A DNA stretch of 42,649 nt from Acidobacteriota bacterium (GTDB taxonomy: Bacteria; Acidobacteriota; Terriglobia; Acidiferrales; UBA7541). Positions within the stretch are counted from its first letter, which is position 1, and each line of letters opens with the position of its first letter. The stretch covers positions 1 to 42,649 of the forward strand of contig JAJXZD010000026.1 in NCBI GenBank assembly GCA_021780215.1. The letters are read 5' to 3'. A model generated the notes under the pieces. The model made no database searches. It was not told where the DNA came from and saw only the letters and a program-made list of their open reading frames with translations. A program made the translations under genes and the position numbers. Below are positions 24,737-34,820 of the stretch, one piece after another.

Positions 24737-25381
24737 CTATTTTTTCCCGAAGTGATAGACCATGCCGGCGGAATAGCGCTTCGGGCCTTGCGTGGCGTTG
24801 CCGCCCACGAAGTTGGCCCCGCCGAAATCGAATTCAATCACCCGCACCGCCCAATGCGAGGAGATCGTCCAGTCGAGCCCTCCGCCCCCCTCCCAGGCGC
24901 GTACCGTGTTTGTCGTGGTGGTCTGGCTATAGCCGCCGAATGGGCCCGTGGTGAGCCTCTGCATCCCCATCCCGACGAGGACATGAATAAAAGGGGTAAT
25001 CTTGCGGTGCCCCAGCGGATAGAACCGCGGGCCGGCCATGAATGTGTATACGGCGGCGTTGCCGGTGATAACGCCCTGATTCTTGTAGGTGCCGCTCCCC
25101 TCGCCTTCCACTCCCAGAAAGCGCAAAAAGTTCCGGTCGAACGATCCCACCCAACCGCTGTAATACGGAGCCGTCCCATTGGTCTGATAGTTGGAGCGGT
25201 AGGCAAAGCCGCCAAAGAGTTCGTACCGGGCGATTGCCCGGCGCTCCTTCTTATGCTGTTTGCGAGGGGCGGGAGCCGGCGCGGAGTTGTCCTGCGGAGC
25301 GTCCGCGGCATCCTGCGCCATCGCCGCCGTGCCCAGCAGCAGAAGCAGCCCGCACGCCACCGCCAGCTTTCGCATCTGCAC
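24737..25381 (-). CDS. Outer-membrane beta-barrel protein (paralog 1)
   Basis: A 214-aa protein with a signal peptide (about residues 1-23, ending A-M-A-Q) and alternating aromatic/polar strands typical of OmpA-like or opacity-type 8-stranded barrels. Recognisable pieces are E-L-F-G-G-F-A-Y-R-S near 60, G-P-R-F-Y-P-L-G-H-R-K-I-T-P-F near 125, and a C-terminal M-V-Y-H-F-G-K-K. It shares layout and the G-P-x-x-Y-P-x-G-H and H-F-G-(R/K) motifs with the gene upstream. It converges with the transketolase gene group, 41 bp apart. Confidence 0.75.
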   Translation of the reverse strand: MQMRKLAVACGLLLLLGTAAMAQDAADAPQDNSAPAPAPRKQHKKERRAIARYELFGGFAYRSNYQTNGTAPYYSGWVGSFDRNFLRFLGVEGEGSGTYKNQGVITGNAAVYTFMAGPRFYPLGHRKITPFIHVLVGMGMQRLTTGPFGGYSQTTTTNTVRAWEGGGGLDWTISSHWAVRVIEFDFGGANFVGGNATQGPKRYSAGMVYHFGKK

Positions 25382-25537
25382 GATCCTCCTCTTCTGCTAT
25401 CAGACTGAAGCGCCGCGGCACGGAAGTATGCGGGCGCGAGTCGTGCCGGCCCGCGGTGGAGCTCCGTCCCTGCAATGGCCCCAGAAATTCCGCCGCAAAG
25501 GAATATCGCAGAACCGCGTCTCGGAGGAAAGAAAAAA

Positions 25538-25561
25538 GGCCGGGCGCTGTCGCGCCCGGCC
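25538..25561 (-). terminator. Rho-independent terminator after the second barrel gene
   Basis: A 10-bp GC-rich stem (25538-25547 with 25552-25561) with a 4-nt loop is followed, in the minus direction, by six T residues (the AAAAAA at 25532-25537 on the plus strand). It lies 20 bp past the stop of the barrel gene at 25582-26172 and separates it from paralog 1. Confidence 0.85.
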
Positions 25562-25581
25562 CGTACGGCAGGGGGAAGAAA

Positions 25582-26172
25582 CTATCTCCGGCCAAAGTGA
25601 AAGAGAATCGCGGCCGTATATTTCCAGCTGTTCTGATTTGCAGCCGCGGGTGCGCCCGTGAGGTATTGCAAATCGAATTGCGTCTGTTCGTAATCGAGCT
25701 CGACCGGACGAATTGCGAAGTGCCTCGAAATGTTGATGTCCAGGCCGCCGCCGCCCGCCCAAGCGAAGTTTCCGTCCCGGTTGTTGCAGTATGGCGTGCA
25801 GCTCGAGGACGATGGAAAGCCCAGGTTGAAGGAGCCGATTCCGAATAATGCATGCGCAAAGGGCGTAATGCGGTGATGGCCGATCGGATAGATCTGCGGC
25901 CCGAGCATGACCGTGGTGATGTTCGTTGTCGCACCGCTCTGCGTGTTCCTTGTCCAGCCGGCATCCGCGTCCACGCCAAGGAAGCCGTTCAGATTGAACT
26001 CCGCGCTCACGTCCAGCCCGTTCATATGCAGTGTTGTATTGGGTTGTAGAACCGGAGGCACGTTCCAGGATTGAAAGCTGTAGCCAATGCCCAGTTCTCC
26101 AACGGGAGTCTGCGCCAGGGCCGGAACGCTCGAAGCAAGCAACAGAACCACGAATCCCCAAAACTTCCTCAT
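25582..26172 (-). CDS. Outer-membrane beta-barrel protein (paralog 2)
   Basis: This 196-aa protein has a signal peptide (about residues 1-20, A-L-A-Q) and an outer-membrane barrel pattern. It shares with its neighbour the block G-P-Q-I-Y-P-I-G-H-H-R-I-T-P-F-A-H-A-L near 93, A-G-G-G-L-D-I-N-I-S near 140, and the C-terminal L-F-H-F-G-R-R. GAGGAGG lies upstream of the ATG. It lies immediately downstream of the lasso-peptide operon on the same strand but after a 203-bp gap, so it is probably independent. Confidence 0.78.
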   Translation of the reverse strand: MRKFWGFVVLLLASSVPALAQTPVGELGIGYSFQSWNVPPVLQPNTTLHMNGLDVSAEFNLNGFLGVDADAGWTRNTQSGATTNITTVMLGPQIYPIGHHRITPFAHALFGIGSFNLGFPSSSSCTPYCNNRDGNFAWAGGGGLDINISRHFAIRPVELDYEQTQFDLQYLTGAPAAANQNSWKYTAAILFHFGRR

Positions 26173-26360: not shown

Positions 26361-26376
26361 GAGTTGAACTCAACTC
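26361..26376 (-). terminator. 16-bp palindrome at the end of the lasso operon
   Basis: A perfect 7-bp inverted repeat (GAGTTGA/TCAACTC, 2-nt loop) overlaps the last base of the kinase stop codon. No T-run follows, so termination is uncertain. The rest of the 203-bp gap (26173-26375) has no gene that I can support. Confidence 0.35.
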
Positions 26377-27410
26377 TACTTGGTCGCCGAACTTGTGGCG
26401 CGAGCCGGAAGCTCATGAGGAGTAATTGACGGATTCTCCAGCGCTTGCTCGACGAATTCGCATAGACGGTCAATTCGCGCGGGGTCTCGATGGGCGCGCA
26501 GCCGCATCATCGGCACGGCGCCGGCGATTCGCCCCAGCAGAGAGAATTCCCGGGCGCGTCTCTCTTCATTCAGGAGTACGCCGGCATAGGAATTGGTCAC
26601 CAGAGAGATGAGGCTTTCGCGTGGCGCAAGCGGCTCGAGATACGGAGCGGCGCGATCGTCTGTCCGCTCGCCCAGCAGAAAGATGGCAGCGAGAGGCAAA
26701 GGTTCGCCGGCGAATTGCAGCGCCGTGGCGGAGACATCCAGTCTCCGCTTGTCGAACTGTCCCGAAAAACTGGGGAGAGCATCCGCCGCCCCGAAAAGCG
26801 CGGAGACCGAGTCGGCCCACAGGGAGATATACGGATAGGCGGGCAGGACGAGAAAGGTGTTGCCGCAATCCTCCAAGGCCACGATGTCGTCTGATACCAA
26901 CGCATGGCCGCGCTTCGCCAGGGCCGCGGCTGTGGTGGATTTGCCCGCGCCGGGTTCCCCCGCGAAAATCGCTGCGGTCTTGCCAAAGGCGACTGCGCTG
27001 GCGTGCAGGCACGTAATGCCGCGCACGCGCAACAGAAATCCGAAAACGGGGCCAAGCAAATAGGTGGCAGCATCTTCGATGGTCAGCGTCGCCGGCCACT
27101 GTGCCCACACTTCCTTGCCGCTGCCGTCCAGCCAGAACTGCATCCCGTCGGCATAGTCCATTCGCCAAAGCGCTCCCTCCCCGACCCTCCAGATGCGCAG
27201 GGTGGGCTCGCCCGATTCAAGCCGATAGGAGCTGGTGAAATAGAGCGTCTCGGGAGTGGAGTGGTCTCCGCGGGACGGTGCGGGGGCGCTTTTAAAATGG
27301 ATTGCGACGTCAGGCTTTTCGCCGGGCAAGCTGGCAAATTTCAGATTGGGGATGGGCCGGTTGGCGCGGAGAGTGAGTCCGAAGACGCGGCAGGTAAACT
27401 CCGGCTCCAT
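26376..27410 (-). CDS. HprK-like kinase of a lasso-peptide cluster
   Basis: This 344-aa protein resembles the kinase-like proteins related to HPr kinase/phosphorylase that accompany some lasso-peptide clusters, such as the paeninodin kinase, which phosphorylates a C-terminal serine of the precursor. The P-loop is G-E-P-G-A-G-K-S-T at residues 151-159, preceded by L-H-A-S-A-V (His136), with L-V-S-D-D-I-V-A-L at 171-179 matching the HprK acidic motif. The N-terminal 120 residues are a separate beta-rich region. Its ATG directly follows the precursor stop codon (TGAATG), so it is translationally coupled. The target residue is not known; the precursor ends in T-T-L rather than Ser. Confidence 0.85.
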   Translation of the reverse strand: MEPEFTCRVFGLTLRANRPIPNLKFASLPGEKPDVAIHFKSAPAPSRGDHSTPETLYFTSSYRLESGEPTLRIWRVGEGALWRMDYADGMQFWLDGSGKEVWAQWPATLTIEDAATYLLGPVFGFLLRVRGITCLHASAVAFGKTAAIFAGEPGAGKSTTAAALAKRGHALVSDDIVALEDCGNTFLVLPAYPYISLWADSVSALFGAADALPSFSGQFDKRRLDVSATALQFAGEPLPLAAIFLLGERTDDRAAPYLEPLAPRESLISLVTNSYAGVLLNEERRAREFSLLGRIAGAVPMMRLRAHRDPARIDRLCEFVEQALENPSITPHELPARATSSATK

Positions 27411-27560
27411 TCACAATGTGGTCCTGTGCTTAATACCACTCGGCCCATCGGGGCTGTTATGGTGACCTACCGTTTGAGTGAGATCGCGAACAGTCCCATA
27501 GACGGTCAAGACGGGAGGAACGTAGGCCTTCTTTGTCCCTGGCGTTGCGGGTTCACGCAT
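27411..27560 (-). CDS. Lasso-peptide precursor (49 aa)
   Basis: A 49-aa frame lies exactly between the cyclase and kinase genes. It overlaps the cyclase stop by 8 nt and ends one base before the kinase ATG. The leader has the conserved lasso pattern: Tyr13, Pro16, Leu18, Gly22 and Thr28 fit Y-x-x-P-x-L-x-x-x-G-x5-T, seen as A-Y-V-P-P-V-L-T-V-Y-G-T-V-R-D-L-T. The core holds one acidic residue, Asp38, and ends in T-T-L. Cleavage before Gly32 would give the 18-residue GHHNSPDGPSGIKHRTTL and a 7-residue ring. Cleavage after Gln29, as leader spacing suggests, would give a 20-residue core with Thr30 first and a 9-residue ring. The family assignment rests on the leader motif plus neighbours B1, B2 and C. 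Confidence 0.85.
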   Translation of the reverse strand: MREPATPGTKKAYVPPVLTVYGTVRDLTQTVGHHNSPDGPSGIKHRTTL

Positions 27561-29412
27561 TGCGGGCCTCCGTTACCAAGTTATACCGAATCCGCTGCGA
27601 GGACCGCAACCAAAAGTTCAGGCAGAAGGGCCGGACTGAGGCCCTGGCGCGCTCCGATCCCCGCACAGAGCCTGGAGCGCCCAGAGCGGAGCGATCCACG
27701 AAGCGGCTGATCTGCTCGCTCCAGGGGGTCGTCTCCAGCCACTTCGCTTCCAACAGCTCCTGCCAAGTTTCCATCGAGTCGTCCGCCATCGGCGTTTTGG
27801 GTCTGCGGCGGACGCTTTCCGGCAAATCGCCGGCCATGGCTTGGCGCAGAAGCGTCTTTTGAAACGCCCAGGGGAAGGGGGGCAGCGCCAGGAGGTAATT
27901 CACGATGCGCAGGTCGAGGAAGGGAAAGCGCACTTCGACTGGGCAGCGCGTGAAGCCCGGGCTTTGCAGCTCGAAAAACTGAGTCCAATGCGGCAAAGAC
28001 ATCGAGGCGTGCGCCGTTGGCATAACCGGATGAGCAGGGGAAACACGCATGATGCCGCATTCCCTTGCGCGTGCCTCGAGGTCGAGCCGCGCCGCGAAAT
28101 CCGGGGCAATCCATTTCGGGACCGCGCGTCCGTCGCGATCTCCATTCCAGAATGCTGCGGCCCTATAGCGCAAGCCGCGCCACGGGAAGGGCCGCAGCCA
28201 GAGATAGCGCGATATCTCCGCGATCCCTCGGCACCATTCTCCGTGGCGCGCCAGATCGCGCACGTAAGGCCACATCTTGAAATGCATCAGGTTGTCGGCG
28301 CCTTCGCCGTTGAACACCACGCGGCAATCCTCAGCAAGCGCGTGGAATTGCTGGAAAAGCACGGTAATGGAAGGATCCTCAACCGGCTCCGCCAAGCGCC
28401 ACTCCGGGCCGTCCCAATCCTCGAATGGGCGGATGCCTTCCATCCGCAGGACCCGCAGGGGAATGCCGAGAAATTCCGCCATGCTTCGTGCGTACGTCTC
28501 ATCGCTGGCGGGCTGGGGAGCTTCCCGCGCGACCGTGTACGCGCGCAGATGGCCTTTGCCACCTGCCTCGGGTGAAATCTTGCAGGCCATTGCGGCGACG
28601 CTCGAGGAATCCAGGCCGCCGCTCAGCAATATGCCGCAGGGAGACTCCGGAAGGCGGTCCGCCACGGCGGCACGAAACAAGTCGCGAAAATGCGCCGTGT
28701 AGTCGCCCGGATTCGCGTAGCGAATACGTCCGTTTACCGGCGGAGACCAGTAGCGCGCCACGCGGAGCCCCTCGCGAGAAACACGCAGGAAATGGCCGGG
28801 CGGCAGCCGCCGAATATCGCGGAAGGTGGTGGTGGCCACATCGTAGTTGAGGCCGAAAAGCAAGAAATCGCCAACTGCCAGTTCATTCAAATCATCGGCC
28901 ACTTCCGGATTCAGGCGCACACAATCGAGCGCGCTGCTGAAAAGGAAGCTATCGCCCGGGCAGGCATAGAAGAATGGTTTGACGCCGAAATGGTCCCGCG
29001 CGCAGAAGAGCGCCCTCGCACGCGCATCCCACACAGCAAAGGAAAAATCGCCGCGCAGCCGATCGAGGCAGCCCTCGCCCCAGGCGGCGTACGACTGAAG
29101 AATCAGCTCGAAGTCGGGCGCGTTGTGCGCGACCGCGCGGCCTGCCCCGCGAAGATCAGCCCGCAGTTCCTCGCGAGCGTCCAGCCGTGCATCCGCCACA
29201 AGTGTGAAAATCCCCTCGAGGCTCGTGAGCTGTCCCGTCCTGACCAGGATGGGGCCTCCCTGCAGAATGGCGCAGCCGAAAGCAAGCGGCCCGTCACACC
29301 ACTCCTGCCGGCCATCCGGACCGCACGGGGAGAGAAATCGCAGCAAGGCTCGCAGCAGGGCGCGATCGGCGGGAGCGCCGTCGCGGTGAAAAATTCCCGC
29401 AATGGCGCTCAC
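27553..29412 (-). CDS. Lasso-peptide cyclase (asparagine-synthetase-like, C protein)
   Basis: This 619-aa protein resembles asparagine synthase B and the lasso macrolactam synthetases that adenylate the Asp/Glu side chain and join it to the core N-terminus. The N-terminal glutaminase-like domain (about 1-200) begins S-A-I-A-G-I-F: the catalytic Cys2 is replaced by Ser, so glutamine hydrolysis is not expected, as in lasso C proteins. The ATP pyrophosphatase loop is S-G-G-L-D-S-S at 264-270, and the synthetase domain runs to the C-terminus (F-N-G-E-G-A-D-N, then E-V-R-F-P-F-L-D). The start is GTG 29412, overlapping the B2 stop as GTGA. Without its neighbours it would simply be called an asparagine synthetase homologue. 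Confidence 0.88.
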   Translation of the reverse strand: MSAIAGIFHRDGAPADRALLRALLRFLSPCGPDGRQEWCDGPLAFGCAILQGGPILVRTGQLTSLEGIFTLVADARLDAREELRADLRGAGRAVAHNAPDFELILQSYAAWGEGCLDRLRGDFSFAVWDARARALFCARDHFGVKPFFYACPGDSFLFSSALDCVRLNPEVADDLNELAVGDFLLFGLNYDVATTTFRDIRRLPPGHFLRVSREGLRVARYWSPPVNGRIRYANPGDYTAHFRDLFRAAVADRLPESPCGILLSGGLDSSSVAAMACKISPEAGGKGHLRAYTVAREAPQPASDETYARSMAEFLGIPLRVLRMEGIRPFEDWDGPEWRLAEPVEDPSITVLFQQFHALAEDCRVVFNGEGADNLMHFKMWPYVRDLARHGEWCRGIAEISRYLWLRPFPWRGLRYRAAAFWNGDRDGRAVPKWIAPDFAARLDLEARARECGIMRVSPAHPVMPTAHASMSLPHWTQFFELQSPGFTRCPVEVRFPFLDLRIVNYLLALPPFPWAFQKTLLRQAMAGDLPESVRRRPKTPMADDSMETWQELLEAKWLETTPWSEQISRFVDRSALGAPGSVRGSERARASVRPFCLNFWLRSSQRIRYNLVTEARNA

Positions 29413-29873
29413 CGGGCCTGCCCTTCCGCACGGCCGATGGTTCCAGGAAACGGAGAAAACTCCGCGCGCGCGCCACCATCCTCGGTCAAGACAATTTCAT
29501 CCATCGCTACCCAGGCGTGTGCCTCGAAGCGGCCCGCGTGCTTGCGGGCGCCCATGCGCAGCTCGGCGGAAATTCCGCGCCGCCGCAAAAGCACGCACAA
29601 CGCGAGGGAACGCTCGAGACAATTCGAGCGGATGGGAAGATGCCGTGCCGTGGCCGTCGCAATATGGGCGATTGCGCGCGCGAGCGCAATCTCGGCGGCC
29701 CGGCTCGCGGGGAAAGCGTGTGAGCCTCGGGTGAGCCACGCCAGGAAATCTTGCCAGCGGCGAAATCCGGCAAGACGCACGCCGACTCGCGTGGACAGCA
29801 GGGCAACAGCCGCTTCGCGCGCGAGCGCGCGCGAAGGCGCGTTCAAGCGCCGGTAACCCCGCCAGGCATTCAT
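29409..29873 (-). CDS. Lasso-peptide leader peptidase (transglutaminase-like, B2 protein)
   Basis: The 154-aa product belongs to the transglutaminase-like B2 family that removes the lasso leader. The catalytic Cys85 is in S-N-C-L-E-R-S-L-A-L, followed by L-L-R-R-R-G near 95 and the catalytic His119 in A-H-A-W-V; Asp124 or Asp132 would complete the triad. ATG 29873 is chosen because the family-like N-terminus (R-G-Y-R-R-L) begins there; a TTG at 29957 would give a longer protein overlapping the PqqD-like gene. Size matches standalone B2 proteins. It overlaps the cyclase gene by 4 nt. Confidence 0.86.
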   Translation of the reverse strand: MNAWRGYRRLNAPSRALAREAAVALLSTRVGVRLAGFRRWQDFLAWLTRGSHAFPASRAAEIALARAIAHIATATARHLPIRSNCLERSLALCVLLRRRGISAELRMGARKHAGRFEAHAWVAMDEIVLTEDGGARAEFSPFPGTIGRAEGQAR

Positions 29874-29928
29874 CACCCCATTCAACCTGCCACCTCGAGA
29901 AAAGGTGCTCCCCGGACTTGGAAACGGC

Positions 29929-30228
29929 TTAGCTCCCCGCCGCCTCCTGAACGACAATCAGCCCTTCGTCCCTCAACCTTCCAAGAAGGATAAGCAGGTC
30001 TTGCTCGCAGCGCTCTGCCTCGACGTCGTATTCATCGAGCAGGGCGTCGCGAAGCTCGGCCACGGTCCTGGCGGTCTGCAAGAGTTTCCAGACGCTGGCG
30101 CCGACCGGGTTCAGCCCATAGTAGATGCTGTTTCTTAGATTCAGAATGGCGGATTCGTCGCCAAGAGGGCAGGTCACCTGCTCCGAGGTCGCCTTCACAA
30201 TCGAATGGAGATAGAGAGGCACGTCCAT
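29929..30228 (-). CDS. PqqD-like RiPP recognition element (B1 protein)
   Basis: This 99-aa protein is a PqqD-family RiPP recognition element. The winged-helix pattern reads C-P-L-G-D-E-S-A-I-L-N-L-R-N-S-I-Y-Y-G-L-N near 20-40, then G-A-S-V-W-K-L-L near 44 and T-V-A-E-L-R-D-A-L near 55-63, ending with L-R-D-E-G-L-I. In lasso clusters this B1 protein binds the precursor leader and presents it to the B2 peptidase. It is the first gene of the operon, 55 bp before the chosen B2 start, with the promoter about 110 bp upstream. Confidence 0.88.
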   Translation of the reverse strand: MDVPLYLHSIVKATSEQVTCPLGDESAILNLRNSIYYGLNPVGASVWKLLQTARTVAELRDALLDEYDVEAERCEQDLLILLGRLRDEGLIVVQEAAGS

Positions 30229-30545: not shown

Positions 30546-31481
30546 ATGAGCTGGATGCGCCGCGCGCTGGTGAGCGCTTCGCAAAGTGCCTGGCTGCGCG
30601 AGCATGCGACCCGGCTGGGCTTTGTCCGCCGCACGGCGGGACGATTCCTTCCGGGCGAGAGACTGGAGGATGCGCTCGCGACGGTCCGGCGCCTCGCGGG
30701 AGGCGGGATGACCGCGCTCGTGACGCATCTGGGAGAAAATGTGCGCGACCGCGCCGAGGCGGAAGCGGTCACCCGGGACTACCTCTCCACGCTGGAAAGC
30801 ATCCGCGCCGCCGCGCTGCCCGCCGAAGTTTCCGTCAAGCTCACGCAGCTTGGCCTGGACCTTGATCGCGAACTTTGCTTCGCCAATGTGTGCACGCTGG
30901 CAGCTGCCGTGGCGCGGGACGCCGCGAAAACACTGTGGATTGACATGGAGCAGAGCCCCTATGTGGACGCCACGCTCGAACTCTGCCGCCGCGCGCGCGC
31001 CGCACATCTCCCGGCCGGCATATGCGTCCAGGCCTACCTCTACCGCACCGAGGAGGATGTGCAAGCACTCGCAGCCGAAGGGGTGCCGGTGCGTCTGGTG
31101 AAGGGCGCATACAGCGAGCCGCCGGAAATCGCGCTTTCCAAGAAAGCCGATGTGGACGGCAATTTTTTCCGCCTGGCACAGTCCCTGCTGGGTCCGGAGG
31201 TGCGCCGCCGGGGCGTGCGTGCGGTGATGGCGACGCACGACCGCCGGCTGATCGCGCGGATTGCGGCATGCGCTGAAACACAAGGCATCCCTCGGAGCGA
31301 GCTTGAATTCGCCATGCTCTATGGCATCCAGCGCGCCGAGCAGGAGCGCCTGGCGCGGGAGGGATATCACAGCTGTGTGCTGGTTTCCTACGGGGCCAGC
31401 TGGTTTGCCTGGTTTATGCGGCGTCTGGCCGAACGCCCCGCAAATCTGTGGTTTCTTCTCCGCAATCTTCTTTCGCGATGA
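30546..31481 (+). CDS. putA: Proline dehydrogenase (monofunctional, PRODH)
   Basis: This 311-aa enzyme oxidises proline to pyrroline-5-carboxylate with FAD, the first step of proline catabolism. It matches monofunctional PRODH TIM-barrel proteins: V-T-H-L-G-E-N-V near 58, E-V-S-V-K-L-T-Q-L-G near 92-101, I-D-M-E-Q-S near 130, Q-A-Y-L-Y-R-T near 159, and R-L-V-K-G-A-Y near 180. The C-terminal F-A-M-L-Y-G block near 256 and S-Y-G-A-S-W-F-A-W-F-M-R-R-L-A-E-R near 280 complete the FAD and substrate site. No P5C dehydrogenase is in view. Its stop overlaps the sirtuin start by 4 nt (ATGA). Confidence 0.94.
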   Translation: MSWMRRALVSASQSAWLREHATRLGFVRRTAGRFLPGERLEDALATVRRLAGGGMTALVTHLGENVRDRAEAEAVTRDYLSTLESIRAAALPAEVSVKLTQLGLDLDRELCFANVCTLAAAVARDAAKTLWIDMEQSPYVDATLELCRRARAAHLPAGICVQAYLYRTEEDVQALAAEGVPVRLVKGAYSEPPEIALSKKADVDGNFFRLAQSLLGPEVRRRGVRAVMATHDRRLIARIAACAETQGIPRSELEFAMLYGIQRAEQERLAREGYHSCVLVSYGASWFAWFMRRLAERPANLWFLLRNLLSR

Positions 31482-32245
31482 ACCGGCTGGGCAGCAAGAG
31501 CGGGCATTTGCAAAGCGTCATTGAAATCGGGGAGACGGATCGTGTTTTCATCCTCACGGGCGCCGGCATCAGCGCCGAAAGCGGCCTGGCGACGTTCCGC
31601 GGAGCCGGAGGATTATGGAGAAACCATCGCATTGAGGAAGTCGCTTCGCCGCAGGCCTGGCGCCGCGATCCGGTCACGGTTTGGGAGTTCTATTCCCAAC
31701 GCCGGCGAGCCGCGCTGGCTGCGCAACCCAATCCAGGGCATCTCGCACTAGCCCGGCTGGAGGACATTCTGGGCGACAGGCTATTTCTCTGCACGCAGAA
31801 CGTGGACGATCTTCACGAGCGCGCAGGCTCGCGGGGCGCCGCGCACATGCACGGAGAGCTGTTCAAGAGCCGCTGCGACACCTGTGACCGCACTCCCTTC
31901 GAGGATAGAAACACCTATGAGCCGCCCGACGGGATTCCCCATTGCGGATGCGGGGGCTGGATTCGTCCCCACATCTGCTGGTTCGGAGAGGTGCCCTTCG
32001 AGATGGACCGCATTGCGCGCGCGCTCGACGAATGCACCCTATTTCTCGCCGTGGGAACTTCAGGCGTGGTCGAGCCGGCGGCGAGTTTCGCCGCCCGGAC
32101 GCGCGCCAACGCGCGGACGGTCTACATCGGCCCGGAGGAGCCGACAAACAGCTACGCTTTCGCTGAGGCCTATTTGGGAAAAGCGGGGGAATTGCTGCCC
32201 GGGCTGTTTCACTGCGCCGGAGCGAGCCGGAGGACTACCGGGTGA
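31478..32245 (+). CDS. cobB: SIR2-family NAD-dependent deacylase (class III type)
   Basis: This 255-aa sirtuin removes acyl groups from lysines using NAD+. NAD motifs are [10 protein letters not shown] near 27-36, T-Q-N-V-D-D-L-H near 106-113, and catalytic His125 in H-M-H-G-E-L. A zinc site is suggested by Cys133, Cys136, Cys156 and Cys158. Tyr72 and Arg75 (F-Y-S-Q-R) match the Y-x-x-R motif of SIRT5-like enzymes that act on succinyl or malonyl lysine. ATG 31478 is chosen over GTG 31448 because of the ATGA overlap with proline dehydrogenase. It converges on the ABC gene with an 11-bp overlap. Confidence 0.93.
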
Positions 32246-32972
32246 CTTCGTCGCGTTCGATTTTGCCGTCTCTCAGGCGGATCACACGATGGGCGTGCGC
32301 GGCGATGTCCTGCTCATGGGTAACGAGGATGATGGTGTTGCCGTTCTGATGCAGCCGGGCGAACAGCGCCATGATCTCCTCGCCGGTGGCCGAGTCGAGG
32401 TTTCCGGTTGGTTCGTCGGCCAGCAGGATCGAGGGCCGGTTCACAAGCGCGCGGGCGATCGCCACACGCTGGCGCTGGCCGCCGGAGAGTTCATTGGGCT
32501 TGTGCATCATCCGCCCGGCGAGGTCCACCTGGGCCAAAGCCATTTGGGCTCGCTCGAGGCGCTCGGTGGCGGGCGTGCCGTTGTAGATCATGGGCAGCTC
32601 GACGTTGTGCAGCGCCGTGGCGCGGGCCAGCAGATTGAACGTCTGGAAGACGAAGCCGATCTCGCGGTTGCGAATGTAGGCGAGTTCGTCGTCATCGAGT
32701 TGGCTGACGAGGCGTCCGGCAAGCCAGTAGGAGCCGCGCGTCGGCGTGTCCAGGCAGCCGATCAGGTTCATCAACGTGGATTTCCCGGAGCCGGAAGGCC
32801 CCATGATGGCGACATATTCGCCTTTGTGAATCTTCATGCTCACACCGCGCAGGGCGTGCAGCTGCTCGGTGCCCATCTCGTAGGTCTTCCACAGGTCCTC
32901 GGTCTGAATGACAATGCCCGCATCCACCAGGTCCTGGCGGAAGTTCTGCGAGACGGCTTCTTCGACTCCCAT
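32235..32972 (-). CDS. ABC transporter ATP-binding protein (MacB/LolD type)
   Basis: This 245-aa ATPase has Walker A G-P-S-G-S-G-K-S near 50, Q-loop F-Q-T-F-N, signature L-S-G-G-Q-R-Q-R-V, Walker [13 protein letters not shown] and the H-loop V-T-H-E. The D-E-P-T-G-N-L-D form and [10 protein letters not shown] are typical of ATPases serving MacB or LolCDE systems. ATG 32972 (GGGAG upstream) begins 31 bp after the adaptor stop; the frame is open upstream into the adaptor gene. No permease gene lies on either side. Confidence 0.92.
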
Positions 32973-33003
32973 GTCTTCTTGGGCTCCCGAGATGCGCCAA
33001 GCG

Positions 33004-34395
33004 CTAGCTTGCGGCTTCGTCGGTCTTTGGCGCGGAATTGTCAATCTTAACCCGCGCGCCGGGCCGCAGAGTGCGCAAAGCCTTGAAACTGCCGGTGACG
33101 ATGATATCCCCTTCCTGCAATCCACTGGTCACTTCGATGTCCGTCACACCGGTGATGCCCGTCTGCACCGGGACAAACTCCGCCTTGCCTCCGCGCACTA
33201 TAAATACTCCCTGGATGTCGTGCCGCTGGCTATCGCCGCTCTCCGATTTGGAGGCCGCCAGCGTTACGGTGGAGCCTCCCCCCTGGCGCGCTTCGTCCAG
33301 CTCTTGCTGGGAACGCCCGGCGAGCGCCTGGATGGGGATGGTGAGCACATCTTTCTTTTGCGCGGTCTGGATCTTGGCCGTGGCTGAAAGGCCCGGACGA
33401 AGCGAAGACGGAGGATTATCGAGGGTCACCACCACCTTGAAATCGCGCGCCTCCTGGGTATTGGCCGTGGCTTCGGTCATCGCTGCCTGGCCGGAGGTGC
33501 GGAGGATGGCGAGCTCGCCGACCTCGGTCACGTAACCTCGAAAGGTCTTGTCGGGAATGGCGTCAATGGAAATCTCAGCTGGCTGGCCATTCTTCACGCT
33601 GGTGATGTCGGTTTCATCCACTTTCACTTCCGCGGTGACCACGCTCATGTCGGAAATGGTCATCAGAAAACTGCCCTCGGCGTTCTGAATCCCCGGGACG
33701 ACATTCTCTCCCACGCGGACGGCAATATAGCTGACGATGCCTTCAATCGGCGCACGGTAGGTAGTCTTCTGCAGGATGTCCTCCTGGTGCGCGAGAACGG
33801 CTTGGGATTGCGCGAGGCTGTAGCGAGCCTGGTCGCGCGAGGCGCGGCTGGCGTCCAATTGTGCTTGCGCCGCCTTGAGTGCGGCCACCGCTCCATCAAA
33901 GGTCGCCTTGCCCGCGTCGTAGTCCTGCTTGGAAATCAGCTGGTTGTTATAGAGCTGCTGGGAGCGCTGCCAATCGAGCTTGGCTTTGTCGAGATCGGCC
34001 TGGCGCTGGGAAACCGTGGCCAGCGCGGAATCGTAATTGGCGGCGGCAACCTTCATGGCGGCCGCGGCTGCGTCAATGCCCGCTTTCTGAGCCTGCACGT
34101 CCGCTCCCGGCTGCACGCTTTCCAGGTGAAGCAGGACGTCGCCTTTCTTGACGTGGTCGCCTTCCTTGACCACGATGTCGGTGATCTTGCCTATACCTTC
34201 GCCGAGCACGTTGGTGTAGTTCTTCGGGCGAATCTCGCCGGAGGCCGTGACGATCGAGGTCAGGTCCTGCCGAACGACCTGCCCCGTCCGCACCGCAATG
34301 ACGCCTTGGTTCGACCGGTGCACGCTATACACAACGATGCCGGCTAAAACCAGAACCCCTGCGGCTCCTATCACCGCTTTTCCCCAAATTTTCAT
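33004..34395 (-). CDS. HlyD/MacA-type periplasmic adaptor protein
   Basis: This protein of about 463 aa (ATG 34395) is a membrane fusion protein that links an inner-membrane ABC transporter to an outer-membrane channel. A membrane anchor is at residues about 5-25. The lipoyl half ([12 protein letters not shown]) precedes a long Ala/Gln-rich coiled-coil hairpin (about 105-205), then the second lipoyl half ([11 protein letters not shown]) and beta-barrel domains. ATG 34395 is chosen because the anchor follows directly; the frame is open to 34509. It is co-oriented with the ATPase. Confidence 0.9.
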
Positions 34396-34820
34396 AACCC
34401 ACACTTTCGCAGCGACAACATCGCCCGCACCCCGTTGATACGCCTCAGGCCGGCCAAATGTTTCTTCCGATGAAAGACCAGATGCCGGGGGCGAGGCATT
34501 TGGCATCACCCTCTTATCGCCAGGCCGGCGCGTGCCCGGGGGAAACTATGGTAGTTCGATTGGCTCCGGGATTAAAGTCCTTTGCATCCGAACCCCGGCA
34601 TCGTCCACCGCCTAAGCCCCCTCTTCATGGAATCGGCGGAAAGCAGCGCCTTGAGACACAAAGAACACGTCGGCAGCTCTCAAGAGGGGCACAAGACTCC
34701 CGGACAACCTGTCATAGGCCCCTCTATTCCAAGAGGATAGCGGGAAAACGGACGATTGAAAGATATGTTGACCTGACCTCCGGGACAGGTTAGCATCACT
34801 ACTCGCAAAGAGGCGCAACT
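34396..34820. other. Intergenic region with a divergent promoter
   Basis: This 425-bp stretch separates the divergent adaptor and GWxTD genes. Apart from the plus-strand promoter near its right end I see no gene. The minus-strand promoter for the adaptor is not clear. Confidence 0.5.
34768..34796 (+). promoter_or_regulatory. Predicted promoter of the GWxTD gene with an inverted repeat in its spacer
   Basis: TTGACC (34768-34773) is spaced 17 bp from TAGCAT (34791-34796), with the ATG at 34821. The ACCTG and CAGGT halves (34771-34775 and 34786-34790) form an inverted repeat lying across the spacer, a place where a repressor could block polymerase. Confidence 0.55.

Follow-up and report, generated by a model that had tools for sequence, protein, structure and literature searches.

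Lasso-peptide gene clusters that combine a split B protein with a kinase are already known in silico, acidobacterial ones included (PMC10368454). In a characterized example, the kinase BsfK of Bradymonas sediminis phosphorylates core Ser3, and the B1 protein assists both the kinase and the peptidase (PMC10368454). Kinases of the paeninodin/ThcoK type target a C-terminal Ser and act on the tail of the precursor before maturation (PMC9266682). The clone of BGC 44.1, an acidobacterial lasso cluster from Schoenbuch soil, included the transporter and no kinase gene, and its product went undetected in both E. coli and Burkholderia (PMC9064862). Residue 1 of the lasso peptides observed to date is exemplified by Gly, Cys, Ser, and Ala, with Asn reported as new in 2025 (PMC12670498). 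Our literature search found no lasso product from the soil acidobacterial group considered here.

We analyzed a 42,649-nucleotide stretch of DNA from an Acidobacteriota bacterium (referred to as the window), which contains five adjacent minus-strand genes (Table 1). A sequence-only reading had described these genes as a PqqD-like recognition element (B1), a transglutaminase-like leader peptidase (B2), a cyclase (C), a precursor (A), and an HprK-like kinase (K), and had matched the set to split-B lasso clusters with a kinase. All five frames were confirmed, and so was the match: B2 and the leader scored above curated cutoffs, and the gene order is recurrent. On this sequence evidence, the genes almost certainly form a lasso-peptide biosynthetic operon. 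They are tightly packed, with the B2 stop overlapping the C start, an 8-nt overlap between C and A, and the K ATG directly abutting the A stop. The cluster is restricted to the five-gene core, with no transporter gene within it, and promoter and terminator scans yielded only chance-level signals.

Table 1. Features of the window, with predicted roles
Feature	Coordinates	Strand	Details
Putative lasso operon, B1-B2-C-A-K	26376-30228	-	five adjacent frames, compact
B1, PqqD-like RiPP recognition element	29929..30228	-	99 aa; PF05402, 70.6 bits
B2, transglutaminase-like leader peptidase	29409..29957	-	open from TTG 29957; probable start ATG 29873, 154 aa
C, lasso cyclase (ATP-dependent macrolactam synthetase)	27553..29412	-	GTG start; NF033535, 322 bits
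A, precursor	27411..27560	-	49 aa; MREPATPGTKKAYVPPVLTVYGTVRDLTQ / TVGHHNSPDGPSGIKHRTTL (slash, predicted B2 cut after Thr-2, Gln-1)
Leader of A	27474..27560	-	codons 1-29; invariant Y-17, P-14, G-8, T-2
Core of A	27414..27473	-	20 residues; predicted ring Thr1-Asp9, tail GPSGIKHRTTL
K, HPr-kinase-like precursor kinase	26376..27410	-	344 aa; H136, G151, G156, K157, S158, D174, D175
Beta-barrel (outer-membrane) genes	24737-26172		flank of operon
Proline-dehydrogenase-like gene	30546-31481		other flank of operon
MacAB-like genes (ABC transporter ATPase and membrane-fusion-like protein)	32235-34509	-	

B1 exceeded the Pfam cutoff for PqqD-family RiPP recognition elements. Its best NCBIfam match was the lasso PqqD model NF033536 (62.5 bits, below the cutoff of 80); it matched two solved lasso B1 proteins in the PDB (9x90_B and TbiB1 5v1u), and its Tyr36 is kept in 35/35 relatives. 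B2 passed the cutoff of 33 for NF033537 with 94.7 bits and scored 82 bits against PF13471. Its predicted catalytic residues, Cys85 and His119, fall exactly where the sequence-only reading had placed them when numbered from ATG 29873, and both are invariant in 37/37 relatives. Loci of genus g212 (L150-L155, L159, L160, L165, and others) carry C-A-K without an adjacent B2, most of them also without B1. At least one B2 gene was present in each of the 16 genomes searched, mostly elsewhere in the genome, and the sequences suggest that the leader peptidase of the g212 cassettes may be supplied in trans.

The best match of the cyclase was the lasso cyclase model NF033535 (322 bits, versus 208 bits for asparagine synthase), a score that remains below the model cutoff of 525. 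The models whose strict NCBIfam cutoffs were missed by the cyclase and B1 were built on other phyla. As had been described from the sequence, the protein has an ATP-pyrophosphatase loop (SGGLDSS at residue 264) and no glutaminase Cys: its N terminus, MSAIAGIF, has Ser2 in place of Cys2, as do 52/52 relatives. Shared fold families, together with the missed cutoffs for C and B1, would also accommodate a pair of primary-metabolism genes, i.e., an asparagine synthetase and an HPr kinase with unrelated roles. However, such an explanation is extremely unlikely and was rejected in view of the glutaminase Cys missing throughout the family, a lasso B2 and a lasso leader above cutoff, the overlap of A with C and its abutment on K, and a gene order kept across genera. 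The suggestion that the cluster is easy to miss was overstated, since B2 and the leader pass standard curated cutoffs.

The cyclase has strong relatives in 57 of the 95 genomes searched from its order. A plasmid search with the cyclase returned, among the matches listed, only cyclases of <31% identity. The order B1-B2-C-A-K recurs in many relatives. Upstream, many of their loci also carry a divergently oriented ABC-2 transporter pair; downstream, a PRMT-like methyltransferase and an NTP_transf_5 nucleotidyltransferase follow in some. The B1-B2-C-A-K architecture is known and common in the order, and the window operon is ordinary for its lineage. In L172, L179, L181, L183, L184, L187, L190, L191, L197, and L202, the gene after the kinase encodes the PRMT-like methyltransferase (PrmA/PRMT_C domains), and the core tail there mostly contains Lys-Thr or Arg-Thr; further tailoring of the core by this enzyme is possible. 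The NTP_transf_5 domain (PF14907) is encoded near the kinase in L165 (7453-8712) and in about 15 other loci, and it recalls the N gene of the bsf cluster. At L161 (genome G477), an intact cyclase gene lies beside the beta-barrel gene, and A, K, and detectable B1 and B2 are gone; this locus is either a cluster in decay or an artifact of assembly.

The genes on either side of the operon were considered as cluster parts and rejected: in G463, a genome of the same genus, homologs of both flanking genes sit side by side (C335, 1718-2671 and 3183-4466), and the cyclase search of this genome gave nothing above its limit. Because the flank homologs adjoin in a genome where no cyclase passed this limit, the lasso cluster would appear, from this sequence comparison, to be a dispensable module that occupies a fixed site. 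The MacB-like genes were likewise rejected as a lasso transporter, being separated from the operon by two opposite-strand genes and unlike the ABC-2 pair of the relatives. These MacAB-like genes are apparently unrelated to the lasso operon.

The A leader contains the proposed Y-x2-P-x-L-x3-G-x5-T motif exactly (Y13, P16, L18, G22, and T28). It scored 24.4 bits against NF033521 (cutoff, 19), which bears out the earlier expectation of a lasso leader in the 49-aa frame, and A scored 29.9 bits against NF033528 (below the cutoff of 33). With the cyclase closer to the lasso model than to asparagine synthase, both checks that the sequence-only reading had set for itself came out in its favor. We aligned 54 distinct precursors (that of the window and 53 relatives) on their leaders; these share ancestry, and all conservation counts given for them represent nonindependent events. 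Tyr-17, Pro-14, Gly-8, and Thr-2 are invariant (54/54). Because Thr-2 is invariant at the exact G-x5-T spacing, the cut is predicted to fall before Thr1, and the window core should be TVGHHNSPDGPSGIKHRTTL (TVGHHNSPD-GPSGIKHRTTL). Alternatively, B2 might cut two residues later, after Val31, which would yield a core from Gly32 with a 7-residue Gly1-Asp7 ring (GHHNSPD), a ring size known from xanthomonins. Gly is the most frequent residue 1 of lasso peptides and occupies this place in 30/54 precursors, and the NF033521 alignment carries a two-residue insertion that would suit the Val31 cut. However, this start is disfavored because ten relatives that share the leader and ring length lack this Gly; Leu, Gln, Ser, Thr, Asn, His, or Ala stands in its place. 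Additionally, the Gly-to-Asp distance varies when Asp is at position 8 or 10, and the would-be -2 residue is variable, whereas the canonical Thr-2 is universal. We consider the later cut quite improbable. The two cores can be told apart by their calculated cyclized masses, 2092.056 Da for the Thr1 core and 1891.940 Da for the Gly1 core, with phosphorylation adding 79.966 Da.

With the core beginning at Thr1, Asp9 lies within the range (core positions 7 to 9) expected of the acidic residue in a lasso precursor. A single acidic residue is present in 53/54 cores; its position is 9 in 37 cores, 8 in eight, 10 in eight, and 11 in one. A Thr1-Asp9 macrolactam ring is likely for the window product because the lone acidic residue fits the pattern expected of a macrolactam acceptor. 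Residue 1 of the 54 cores is Thr in 18, Ser in 11, Ala in 10, Lys in 7, Arg in 4, Gln in 2, and Asn in 2, and it is never Gly. Fuscanodin has Trp1. Precursors from L159, L179, L180, L184, L187, L190, L197, and L203 have leaders that are otherwise canonical, and their sole acidic core residue is at position 10 (position 11 in one L190 precursor). By their sequences, these precursors imply predicted macrolactam rings larger than the 7 to 9 residues of known lasso rings, and closely related cyclases differ in the implied ring length, 9 versus 10 residues (L179 versus L181). No 10-residue lasso rings were found in a literature search. The precursor of a Desulfobacterales locus (L034, 7914-8096) has a tail closed by an eight-Met run and then Pro (GATGPMMDGMAPGGKPMMMMMMMMP).

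Threading of the tail is not assured, because most tails lack an aromatic plug: F, W, or Y occurs in the tail of 19/54 cores and is absent from 35/54, including that of the window. These tails leave room for an unthreaded branched cyclic peptide or for threading that relies on a phospho-Thr stopper. We judge either outcome unlikely, however, as B1, B2, and C belong to lasso peptide families and the plug role can also be filled by Arg, His, Ile, or Leu.

The sequence similarity of K to HPr kinase is weak. A family HMM built here aligned it with BsfK (E value, 3e-40) with every catalytic residue matched, i.e., the His, the P-loop Lys-Ser, and the Asp-Asp pair, which supports its designation as an HprK-like kinase. 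H136, G151, G156, K157, S158, and D175 are present in 52/52 relatives, and D174 is present in the window protein. An AlphaFold model of K (pLDDT, 83) had PEP carboxykinase and HPr kinase as its nearest folds. Neither acceptor site of the described kinases is conserved in the family. A C-terminal Ser occurs in 0/54 cores, and the window core ends in Leu; Ser or Thr occupies core position 3 in 13/54, and the window core has Gly3. A paeninodin-like C-terminal Ser site and a BsfK-like Ser3 site were thus both rejected for the window kinase. Thr is found somewhere in the last six core residues of 53/54 precursors, and [RKH]T occurs inside these six residues in 46/54, versus a mean of 9.2 and a maximum of 20 in 2,000 tail shuffles. 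Because the C-terminal Ser and Ser3 sites are not conserved, whereas the tail basic-Thr motif is, the kinase target in the window core is predicted to be Thr18 of the Arg-Thr motif (HRTTL).

Phosphorylation of a tail Thr of the precursor by K is, in our estimation, moderately probable. The window core offers five hydroxyl residues, and BsfK modifies a ring Ser, so that the site differs among lasso kinases (PMC10368454). K could accordingly act on Ser7, Ser12, Thr1, or Thr19, or the phosphate could be a mere intermediate. Such outcomes have a real but clearly smaller chance: the remaining hydroxyl positions are unconserved across kinase-bearing relatives, whereas the tail Thr is conserved, and the operon has no lyase gene. 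Outside this family, a phylum-wide raw count that ignores phylogeny found a hydroxyl residue (Ser/Thr) among the final three positions in 16/21 kinase-bearing versus 3/19 kinase-free precursors. A subgroup of loci (L186, L188, L194, and L195) has D8 rings, Cys-containing tails, and no basic-Thr motif despite the presence of a kinase.

From the gene identities, catalytic residues, leader, lone acidic position, and conserved tail Thr visible in the sequence, we infer the cut site, threading, phosphorylation, and phosphorylation site as follows. B1 would bind the YxxPxL leader and deliver the precursor to K and B2. K, aided by B1, would phosphorylate the linear precursor, most likely at Thr18. 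B2 would then cleave after Gln-1, two residues beyond Thr-2 when that residue is included in the count, and C would activate Asp9 with ATP and couple it to the amine of Thr1, enclosing the threaded tail. We assign a probability of roughly 70% to this reading as a whole, i.e., a lasso-peptide operon with a tailoring kinase acting in the proposed sequence of events. That the product is secreted or signals to soil neighbors would be only a guess. A broader picture is tentative and, on balance, doubtful: a lineage that never uses Gly1 (but Thr, Ser, Ala, Lys, Arg, Gln, or Asn instead), whose kinase puts a phosphate, maybe as a stopper, on a basic-adjacent tail Thr, and whose close relatives form rings of 10 or 11 residues.

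The analysis yields precise predictions (a core sequence, a pair of alternative masses, and a single kinase site) for a lasso family that is widespread in this soil group. If residue 1 may be Thr, Lys, or Arg, the genome-mining rules for lasso cores are too narrow.

Compared with known systems, BGC 44.1 resembles the window family in its order B1-B2-C-A and its gene sizes (303, 471, 1,863, and 150 bp), the comparison being one of order and sizes only. Its divergent ABC pair (822 and 810 bp) fits relatives such as L163. It differs from the window operon in being kinase free as cloned and in including a transporter; the absence of a kinase could, we suggest, have contributed to its yielding no product. 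The bsf cluster shares with the window a split B, an HPr-like kinase with the same catalytic set, and a YxxPxL leader, but it has Ile-2, a Gly1-Asp8 ring, and a Ser3 target, whereas the window precursor has Thr-2 and Gly at position 3. The paeninodin type shares action on the precursor tail with the proposal made here and differs in its C-terminal Ser, where the window has Leu. Metanodin, like the window core, is soil derived, starts with a residue outside the Gly/Ala/Ser/Cys set, and was placed by the Thr-2 rule; unlike the window, it has Asn1 and a proteobacterial ABC architecture (PMC12670498). Chemically, the window operon is a variant through its predicted residue 1 and tail phospho-Thr. 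The class itself is known, but neither this starting residue nor the phosphate site predicted here is among those demonstrated experimentally so far.
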